From positions 62,001 to 126,000 of the forward strand of contig NZ_JAAKEN010000004.1 of the NCBI RefSeq assembly GCF_011039175.1: a stretch of DNA of 64,000 nt. Reading direction: 5' to 3'. Positions 50,965 to 52,646 of the stretch are shown here, piece by piece. How positions within the stretch are numbered: position 1 is the stretch's first letter; every line of letters begins with the position of its first letter. A program made the position numbers and the translations under genes. This DNA is from Slackia sp. ZJ119. Lineage in GTDB: Bacteria > Actinomycetota > Coriobacteriia > Coriobacteriales > Eggerthellaceae. Under the pieces are notes generated by a model. It saw only the letters and a list, made by a program, of their open reading frames with translations. It was not told where the DNA came from and searched no databases.

Positions 50965-51678
50965 ATGTCCCAAAAGCGCTCCAAGAAGTACCAGGCAGCC
51001 CTCGAGCTCATCGGCGAAGAGACGTACGCTCCGCTCGCGGCCTTCGCGAAGCTGAAGGAGGTCTCCACGGCCAACTTCGACGAGACCGTCACCGCCGACT
51101 TCCGTCTGGGCATCGACACCCGCCAGGCCGACCAGCAGCTGCGCGGCACCGTCAGCCTGCCGAACGGCTCGGGCAAGGAAGTGCGCGTGGCCGTGTTCGC
51201 CGAAGGCGAAGCCGCTCGCGCCGCCGAAGAGGCTGGCGCCGACATCGTAGGCACCGACGAGGTCATGGCCCAGGTGCAGGCCGGCGAGTTCAACTTCGAC
51301 GCCGCCGTCGCCACGCCGGACCAGATGGGCAAGGTCGGCCGTTTGGGCAAGATCCTCGGCCCCCGCGGCCTCATGCCGAACCCGAAGCTCGGCACGGTGA
51401 CCAACGACGTGGCCAAGGCCATCAAGGAACTCAAGGGCGGCCGCGTGGAATACCGCGCCGACCGTTACGGCATCGCGCACGTCATCATCGGCAAGGCGTC
51501 CTTCGACGCCGAGAAGCTGGCCGAGAACTACGGCGCCGTGTATGACGAGATCCTGCGCATGAAGCCGTCTGCGGCCAAGGGCAAGTACGTGAAGTCCATC
51601 ACGGTGTCCGGCACGATGACCCCTGGCGTCCCGGTCGATTCTGCCGTGACCCGCAACTATGCCGAGAATGCCGAATAA
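50965..51678 (+). CDS. rplA: 50S ribosomal protein L1
   Basis: Encodes 237 residues: [33 protein letters not shown], the [20 protein letters not shown] signature and [12 protein letters not shown]1 forms the mobile L1 stalk and in many bacteria represses rplK-rplA translation; a GGGC-GAAA-GCCC hairpin (50925-50937) in the gap before it could be relevant. ATG 50965 follows GAAAGGAAAG. Confidence 0.98.
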
Positions 51679-51708
51679 CGCGTTTCGATAGAACTTGTTT
51701 GCAAGCGA

Positions 51709-51735
51709 GAAGCCCTCTTCGGAGGGCTTCTTTTG
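51709..51735 (+). terminator. Rho-independent terminator after rplA
   Basis: GAAGCCCTC-TTCG-GAGGGCTTC followed by TTTT; a UUCG-loop terminator 30 bases after the rplA stop. Confidence 0.87.
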
Positions 51736-51819
51736 TGTCTGGGGGAGGGTTTCCAGGTGTTCGGAGCAGCATGGCTGTTGGACGGCGCTTCCGCCGCGAC
51801 GGCTTTGCTGGCTCGTGGG

Positions 51820-52035
51820 ACGGCCGCCGCGCCGACGGAGCTCCGCTTTGACGCGTCGGCTTCTCGAGCCAAGGTCTCGAGAAGCCTTTGGCTGGGACCA
51901 AAGCTCCGCCCCGCCGGCGCGGCGGCCTGCTGCGAGGTGGGCATTGTCGCCGATTAGGCTCCACGCGCGAGGCGTCGTCGGCCTGAGCCAAGGTCTCAGG
52001 CCTCCTTTGGCTTGGCCTCGGTTGCGCCGTCGTGG
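51820..52035. repeat. Two tandem structured elements with invariant CCAAGGT loops
   Basis: Element A has a perfect 11-bp stem (GGCTTCTCGAG/CTCGAGAAGCC, 51858-51886) and element B an 8-bp stem (GGCCTGAG/CTCAGGCC, 51980-52002); stems differ but both close the same 7-base loop CCAAGGT. Each is followed by CCTTTGGCT, which can pair with AGCCAAGG of its own loop region. Outer segments also pair (for A, GGCCGCCGCGCCG with CGGCGCGGCGGCC). No gene fits the stretch 51736-52145; a further 9-bp stem lies at 52074-52103. Confidence 0.6.
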
Positions 52036-52145
52036 CGGAAGTGCCTGCTGCAAGGCGGGGCATGCTTGATATGCCGTTAGTCAGTCTGATTTCGGACTAA
52101 CGGGTTCAGCGCTTGTCTCGGTCGTACGGGGTGCCCATTTCCTGC

Positions 52146-52183
52146 AAAAAGAAGGCGAGCAGCCAGAAGGGGTGGCTGCTCGC
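52146..52183 (-). terminator. Terminator of the minus-strand molbindin gene
   Basis: On the minus strand GCGAGCAGCCA and TGGCTGCTCGC (52155-52165 with 52173-52183) form an 11-bp stem followed by CTTCTTTTTG. Confidence 0.85.
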
Positions 52184-52217
52184 GCAGGAAGGGAGAGAGT
52201 GGAAAGAAGGGTTGTGG

Positions 52218-52646
52218 CTAGTCGATTGCCACCATGACGTCAGTTGATTTGATGATTGCCGTTGCTGTATCACCTACTTTCAGGCTGAGGTCGCTGATGG
52301 CCTCGTTCGTGATGGACGCCTTGATCGATGCTTCGGCGCATCCCAGGTCGATGGTCACATGGCCGTTGACGGCACCTTCGGTGATGGCGGCGATGGTTCC
52401 CTGCAGCTGGTTGCGAGCGGAGATGGTGGCGATAGCCTCGTCACCCGTTGCAACCATGACGTTCGATGTTTTGATGACCGCGTACGCGTCTTTGCCCTCT
52501 TCGAGGCCGAGGCTGTCGATGGCCTCGTTGGTTATGTCCGCCTTGATGGTTTTGTCGCCGCATTCGATGGCGACGATGCCGTTGACGGCTCCTTTCTTCA
52601 CTGAAGCGACCTTGCCTTTGATGAAGTTGCGTGCCGAAATCTTCAC
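52218..52646 (-). CDS. Molbindin-type protein, two tandem Mop (TOBE) domains
   Basis: Encodes 142 residues made of two 70-residue repeats: each begins with SARN (residues 4-7 and 76-79), continues GKVASVKKGAVNGIVAIE or GTIAAITEGAVNGHVTID, then ITNEAI and a closing VIKTSNVMVA or IIKSTDVMVA. This is the di-Mop fold that stores or senses molybdate or tungstate in the cytoplasm. Start is GTG at 52646 on the minus strand after AAAGGAG. An AT-rich inverted repeat sits directly upstream and a terminator downstream, so it is a single-gene unit. Confidence 0.92.
   Translation of the reverse strand: MKISARNFIKGKVASVKKGAVNGIVAIECGDKTIKADITNEAIDSLGLEEGKDAYAVIKTSNVMVATGDEAIATISARNQLQGTIAAITEGAVNGHVTIDLGCAEASIKASITNEAISDLSLKVGDTATAIIKSTDVMVAID

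Follow-up and report, generated by a model that had tools for sequence, protein, structure and literature searches.

Introduction

The known systems closest to the repeat reported here include the REPs and their RAYT transposases. According to PMC3733652, RAYT genes have GTAG repeats or other inverted repeats on their flanks and REPs are placed mostly behind genes, and Di Nocera and colleagues are reported to take GT pairs within stems as a possible sign of an RNA function. The main text of that article does not mention Eggerthella, Slackia, Coriobact, Cryptobacterium or Actinobacteria. Among the papers found in searches on palindromic and miniature repeats in Eggerthella and Coriobacteria, none is an account of the repeat that we describe, judged from titles and abstract openings.

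Here we analysed a stretch of 64,000 nucleotides from Slackia sp. ZJ119 (contig NZ_JAAKEN010000004.1), called the window below. Two hairpins in it are the tips of two copies of a real dispersed palindromic repeat that is restricted to Eggerthellaceae-type gut bacteria and whose broad kind is known. Its unusual property is that across genera each copy keeps the shape but not the letters of the stem. Shared sequence is what normally defines a repeat family. In this one the outer stem has little of it outside close relatives, and it took a structure model to find the relatives.

Two hairpins between rplA and a molbindin gene

The genes that flank the hairpins match Ribosomal_L1 and TOBE (two stretches), and terminator-like sites bracket both elements, one behind rplA on the plus strand (51707-51732) and one behind the molbindin gene on the minus strand (52183-52155). 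A preliminary description of this DNA had noted twin hairpins of 11 bp and 8 bp that share the loop CCAAGGT and are both followed by CCTTTGGCT. All of this was confirmed (Table 1), with a start-to-start spacing of 119 and 74% identity across 47 nt. The longer outer pairing that had been ascribed to both is present in element 1 (29 nt, 83% complementary; fold −73.3 kcal/mol, z −3.9), but in element 2 most of the left outer arm is gone, the outer pairing is no better than chance and the fold is at chance level (z −0.5). The third, 9-bp stem that had been listed with them does exist at 52074-52103, but it has no second copy among the loci examined and looks unrelated to the repeat. Promoters had been named as a further point to check, and a scan of 51650-52250 gave no promoter-like site. 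Over the elements no Rfam 15 family reached its gathering score, the best match being 20.9 bits against a gathering score of 79. At the rplA place of a sister species (G136) there is a single copy with other stems.

Table 1. Positions of the two elements and their parts in the window
Feature	Position	Strand	Basis
Solitary left-arm-like fragment GTTGGACGGCGCTTCCGCCGCGACGGC	51777..51803	+	sequence identical to left arms of full copies
Element 1, complete copy (125-position model)	51812..51937	+ (minus is the strand argued to fold)	covariance model R1 125.6 bits, E 3.7e-22; R2 93 bits
GTGGGAC, 5' foot of the element 1 hairpin; GTNGGAC in most home-genus copies	51815..51821	+	sequence; 22-copy alignment
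Element 1 left outer arm	51822..51841	+	complementarity to right arm
Left half of the conserved TNC/TNC internal loop (TCC; minus GGA)	51842..51844	+	
GACGCGTC, core palindrome, conserved in most copies	51850..51857	+	
Element 1 inner hairpin: GGCTTCTCGAG (51858-51868) pairs with CTCGAGAAGCC (51876-51886), 11 bp, loop CCAAGGT 51869-51875	51858..51886	+	
Conserved CCTTTGGCT of element 1	51885..51893	+	
Right half of the TNC/TNC internal loop (TCC)	51905..51907	+	
Element 1 right outer arm, complement of 51822-51841	51908..51927	+	
3'-foot CTGC, which on the minus strand reads GCAG and is the 5' foot of that hairpin	51927..51930	-	sequence; tag statistics from other genera only
Element 2, decayed; core, inner stem and right part retained	51940..52055	+	R1 81.2 bits, E 2.4e-13; no R2 match reported at E 1
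Element 2 inner hairpin: GGCCTGAG (51980-51987) pairs with CTCAGGCC (51995-52002), 8 bp, loop CCAAGGT 51988-51994; CCTTTGGCT at 52004-52012	51980..52002	+	

A dispersed repeat of Eggerthellaceae

The core pattern CCAAGGTCT..CCTTTGG has 24 exact matches in the window's own genome (G000), against 0 for the reversed control. Twenty-two full copies among these matches were aligned, and a covariance model built from them gave 46 matches in the own genome, including half copies and opposite-strand echoes. When the same model was run on three congeners, there were 30 matches in one and 0 in the other two. The comparisons below use the complete genome of the sister species G136 and the element-free genomes G134 and G135. 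In the stretches searched there were 55 copies of at least 80 bits, 33 of them in G000 and 22 in G136.

Matches at E 1e-4 were found in 24 of 138 Eggerthellaceae genomes, from 9 genera and with the own genome counted; 25 candidates were scored per genome in this survey, so that its copy numbers are minimum values and weak members may have escaped it. A second model built from 64 copies (R2) matched 19 of 396 genomes of the class, 18 from the same family and one from another family of the order, again with copy numbers that are lower bounds and with weak members possibly missed, since eight candidates were scored per genome. Among 396 phylum-wide genomes the own genome alone matches R2. The exact core also occurs in named records from Enterorhabdus sp. 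P55 and from the Eggerthellaceae MAGs ABMPRH_69_3 and Red_deer_4_mag_31, in collections that may omit the window's own genome and very near ones. The suggestion of a new repeat family, made from the two hairpins, is supported, and the covariance-model search that had been proposed found both further copies and covariation in related genomes. One gammaproteobacterial match to the core pattern (L092) was rejected as a family member because no family arms surround it. Viral spread was also rejected, with 0 matches of the core pattern in viral contigs.

Conserved core and covarying arms

In copies from other genera, the consensus runs from the foot CTGTCC through an arm and TNC to GCTCGACGCGTCGTCG..GAG, then either the short loop CCAAGGT or a further hairpin (CTAAC..GTGGAT), then CTC..CCTTTGGCTTGACCTCGCTNC, the complementary arm and the foot TAC or TGC. 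The family is modular, with hairpins inside hairpins. The outer arms are 11-34 nt long in these genera, mostly 20-26. Both sides of the internal loop read TNC in 47 of 49 copies from a pattern search, four of the 49 being from other genera, and in 52 of the 56 copies of the other-genera set. Its middle position pairs in 20 of these 56 copies against 12.7 expected, and thus is not clearly a pair. The other-genera set came from 40 stretches and further loci, with no anchor-pattern row from L172, L182, L189 and L202 or from the further loci L138, L141, L144 and L146; the 58 rows less a nested row (L177) and a same-arm copy (L195) leave 56 (57 in the comparison of fold stability).

The 22 own-genome copies form a 29-pair structure in 96.2% of cells, and 18 of the 29 pairs show double changes. 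The covariation score is 0.426; shuffles give 0.164 and slid structures no more than 0.10. With 64 copies from several genera the score rises to 0.627 (0.152 for shuffles, at most 0.113 for slid structures) and 26 of the 29 pairs show double changes, although this alignment (A3) was fitted to the structure and pair counts lean that way. Copies are not independent of one another, which applies to all counts over copies. In a comparison made independently of A3, the complement score of a copy's own right arm is 40.3 (sd 7.7) against 13.5 (sd 4.1) for the arms of other copies, and in 51 of 56 other-genera copies the own second arm is the single best complement. Selection for structure, which had been proposed from two unrelated stems, is supported by both results.

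How far arms are shared differs between genomes. The last 18 nt of the left arm fall into 15 clusters for 17 copies in G114, 6 for 13 in G079, 6 for 9 in G120 and 18 for the 18 remaining copies from other genera. In the home genus the left arm could be placed in 27 of 33 copies of G000 and 20 of 22 copies of G136, and these form 5 and 3 clusters, respectively. With so few arm types, whole units have spread there together with their arms.

Changes at fixed sites

Orthologous copies show how the arms change. In one pair shared by G000 and G136 (L111:11599, L118:2627), the outer-arm differences are three double changes, without any single one; in two other pairs (L108/L119 and L106/L129) they are single changes. 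At the L104/L113 locus two species have the same outer arm and different enclosed inner modules, and L121:2788 is a chimeric copy. Two orthologous copies carry CCACAGT in place of CCAAGGT. The copy at L097:3996-4120 has an unchanged stem and the inverted loop ACCTTGG, which from its sequence appears to be an inversion between the stem arms. In genus g45 the neighbouring gene was found in five of 15 genomes, and in four of them it stands beside an element, each time with a different arm pair; two of the four arm pairs have a G-rich stretch in common. The fifth genome, from an element-free species, has a plain 11-bp palindrome at this place (the G118 site) instead.

Presence and absence of whole units was observed as well. 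At L111:3011, 181 bp in G000 correspond to 4 bp in G136, with flanks that are 94-95% identical. CGCCGG stands at both junctions and is the sole candidate direct repeat, and the empty site has 4 other bases. The direction is uncertain, and the empty site would also fit a deletion in G136. An ABC ATPase gene (PF00005; L107:2921-4039) contains another copy in frame, close to the gene's start (L107:2956). The G134 orthologue of this gene is without the repeat-encoded stretch, and this reads as an insertion that brought its own arms. At the L192 site (G079, genus g33), two sister species carry unrelated very long palindromes instead of the repeat, as if this gap had been filled repeatedly by different palindrome families. 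Insertion of the core into a pre-existing hairpin was rejected as a general route, because the G136 empty site is without a hairpin and the L107 insertion brought its arms. A weaker form of it may be kept alive by the plain palindrome at the G118 site.

Strand asymmetry

Mismatches in the arms are not symmetric between strands. Read on the plus strand, the 56 other-genera copies have 34 A.C and 8 G.U mismatches and 22 transversions. The A.C excess holds in unique contexts (32 versus 8, p 1.8e-4) and by copies (22 versus 4, p 5e-4). In the home genus there are 44 A.C, 22 G.U and 18 transversions, counted over 46 distinct arm pairs that score at least 28 and are not independent. An A.C excess on the plus strand means that wobble is tolerated on the minus strand, and selection on a plus-strand RNA, which we had considered, is disfavoured by these counts. 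Strand-biased mutation could possibly account for part of the asymmetry. With DNA parameters the minus-strand fold is the more stable one in 54 of 57 other-genera and 45 of 55 home-genus copies, and RNA parameters give 49 and 31, respectively; this partly restates the mismatch asymmetry. TNC/TNC on the plus strand is GNA/GNA on the minus strand. The foot CTRC, which puts GYAG at the 5' foot of the minus strand, is present in 32 of 56 other-genera copies but in 6.9% of random 10-mers, and the window copy has GCAG.

Genomic setting

Gene neighbourhoods were taken from a simple purpose-made ORF caller, without annotation. The 55 home-genus copies lie in 18 convergent, 12 divergent and 23 tandem gaps (19 sense and 4 antisense); of the remaining two, one is within an ORF and the other stands at a contig edge. 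The same stretches have 33 convergent, 34 divergent and 106 tandem gaps of 60 nt or more in total. In G079, all 13 scored copies (of 14 stretches) are behind a sense gene, with the core 29-92 nt past the stop codon, while copies of G114 are found in both orientations relative to genes. In G136, 17 of 22 full copies are co-oriented with replication (one-sided p 0.008), the origin being taken at the record start, with which GC skew and coding direction broadly agree. Since genes too are co-oriented with replication, the two biases are not separated. The T run of an intrinsic terminator is rare after the hairpin. On the plus strand 3 of 56 copies have TTTT in the 15 nt that follow the 3' foot and 2 of 55 have it near the 3' end, and on the minus strand it follows the hairpin in 0 of 56 and 2 of 55. 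At one relative's locus there is an ordinary TPP riboswitch on the minus strand (L146:2039-2147).

RAYT-like genes and comparison with known mobile repeats

RAYT-like genes are present in five of nine element-bearing genomes tested (G059, G074, G079, G114 and G120). They were not found in the element-bearing G000, G136, G060 and G078, nor in the element-free G134 and G135. G136, G060 (77% complete) and G078 gave no Y1_Tnp match, and the sole match in G000 (C38:144787-145110, L025) is an IS200/IS605-type transposase (109 bits), in whose locus no element lies. For all eight RAYT-like proteins the best NCBIfam match is REP_Tyr_transpos, at 54-79 bits and thus below the curated cut-off of 80. No element was found up to about 1.5 kb on each side of the eight matches (R1; best E with R2 1.1). 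With no element found close to a RAYT-like gene and no RAYT in the home genus, membership in the REPs is unproven.

The repeat is like GTAG REPs and REPINs (PMC3733652, PMC3116915, PMC8266576) in forming many-copy intergenic palindromes mostly behind genes, with an interrupted stem and a non-autonomous nature. It also resembles the REP hairpins read by TnpA_REP in having a candidate tag at one foot, an interrupted stem and a preference for one strand. Unlike REPs, whose family stems are about 5-13 bp, the repeat has long arms that differ between most copies outside the home genus, and these vary more than the stems of REP families. It has a large conserved core at its tip and does not stand beside RAYT-like genes, with the window's genus having no RAYT. 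A short stem common to the copies of one genome was not found; the arms of the home genus are shared but long. By analogy, the repeat would work like a REP, and we do not claim that it is one.

MITEs such as Correia, ERIC and the Rickettsia palindromic elements are likewise small, dispersed and folding, with presence or absence of whole units, and the one in-frame gene copy is of a sort that is common for Rickettsia palindromic elements (PMC10969869). Unlike MITEs, the repeat has no family-wide conserved terminal inverted repeat, and its outer arms differ between copies. No parent insertion sequence was found, Y1_Tnp being the only family searched by name. The attC sites of integrons have a largely free stem sequence, as the repeat has, and end boxes of the form RYYYAAC / GTTRRRY. 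With this consensus, none of the 56 copies has an end box near either foot. The likeness to attC sites is that these are read as one folded strand in which unpaired bases matter for recognition (PMC3053210). Unlike attC sites, copies of the repeat are scattered singly, and no cassette role was seen.

Discussion

The repeat is a dispersed family with covarying arms, with presence or absence of units between species and with a strand asymmetry of mismatches. We propose, with a probability of roughly 0.55, that it is a non-autonomous mobile palindromic DNA repeat, kept as a single-stranded hairpin of the minus strand and moved by a Y1 (HuH) transposase of the RAYT kind. We infer that the form under selection is single-stranded DNA and that the enzyme moving it is RAYT-like. 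The hairpin is about 120-155 bp long, and the sole presence/absence unit measured in the home genus is about 175-181 bp. The minus strand would form a long hairpin as single-stranded DNA, in the order of a foot like GTAG or GCAG, an arm, the GNA/GNA internal loop, the core with its short inner hairpin, and the complementary arm. The transposase would read the foot, the interrupted stem and the core, and not the letters of the arms. Moving copies would take their arms along, which would give the shared arm types of the home genus, and arms would later drift in compensated pairs, which would give the private arms of old copies. Most copies lie behind stop codons or between convergent genes, which would be the places of least harm.

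The alternative that deserves most attention, though we consider it unlikely, is an element at the RNA level, in which the hairpin is transcribed with the preceding gene and protects the mRNA end or blocks read-through. Such an element would act both ways between convergent genes, and arms would covary because any long hairpin suffices. The position of all 13 scored G079 copies shortly behind a sense gene agrees with it, and so do the convergent and sense-tandem copies of the home genus (18 of 55, and 19 of 23 tandem), which are not independent. The unrelated palindromes at the G079 site and the 11-bp palindrome at the g45 site look as if a hairpin were wanted there. The location of REPs behind genes and the hint from GT pairs (PMC3733652) keep this alternative alive. 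However, where the plus strand is the sense strand, in G079, the arm mismatches are 17 A.C and 2 G.U, the reverse of the tolerance expected of RNA, which speaks against selection on the mRNA. The two orientations in G114, the rarity of T runs and the ordinary terminator on each side of the window copies are also against it. A structured RNA, which the preliminary description had offered as one possibility, gains little support, since the copies stand between two terminator-like sites with no promoter found and wobble favours the minus strand. In the home genus a minus-strand RNA would be antisense in 19 of 23 tandem neighbourhoods. In G079 it would be antisense to all 13 upstream genes, but not consistently so in G114. 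The more specific idea that each hairpin can switch folds, with CCAAGGT pairing alternately with CCTTTGGCT, is in our view highly improbable. Loop and tail are indeed invariant in all 22 aligned own-genome copies, which were picked by a pattern that contained most of both. Yet switching is not a feature of the family: many relatives keep the CCTTTGGCT tail and have another hairpin in place of the loop, one loop is inverted and two orthologous copies have CCACAGT, wobble shows no bias toward the plus strand, and no Rfam family comes near its gathering score.

Two further explanations concern the DNA itself. The copies could be passive palindromes, that is, functionless scattered repeats in which template switching during replication copies one arm onto the other. 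This would explain arms that are different yet complementary, the inversion at L097:3996, the chimera L121:2788 and the module exchange at L104/L113, and the co-orientation with replication of 17 of 22 copies is in its favour. We doubt it, because the T.C and C.T mismatches of the internal loop survive beside complementary arms, the core is largely invariant, and the excess of A.C over G.U on the plus strand needs a strand-specific step. The second explanation, a rather improbable one, is a mobile element that inherits shape and not sequence. During or following a move, snap-back synthesis on the minus strand would use one arm to make the other anew, giving the copy a new, self-complementary pair of arms about a core that stays fixed. 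The surplus of G.T over A.C mismatches on that strand would then be a footprint of misincorporation in this synthesis. The shared arm types of the home genus speak for ordinary movement of arms with the unit and make this less probable. Taken together, the hairpins in the preliminary description are confirmed as observed, and their interpretation is partly supported.

If the arms of the repeat are read by shape alone, sequence-based repeat finders will miss such elements, and the copies offer a natural series of compensated stems for the reading of a folded strand by an enzyme or by replication. The question whether RAYT-type enzymes read shape alone becomes testable, and the repeat explains part of the spacer DNA in these gut bacteria.

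Other modules and palindromes

Half copies have the common left arm followed by another long hairpin module (GGAATAGGCAGGGGGAGGG..CCCTCCCCCTGCCGATTCC) and were seen at L114:2935, L115:2662, L103:10120, L104:9667, L098:8151 and L110:2428. A third module type is present at L123:2360, L127:1206, L094:1717 and L099:4196. The very long palindromes of the two g33 sister species are at L233:1170-1515 and L234:1780-1960, and one of them is TCGTAGGGCAGAGATTCTATCTCTGCC.. in sequence. A second, unrelated dispersed palindrome, the near-perfect GACAGAGGGACGGRGTATTCGTCAG...CTGACGAATACYCCGTCCCTCTGTC, occurs at several places of the own genome (L107:5356, L103:11969, L094:3096 and L112:3027), sometimes near an element.
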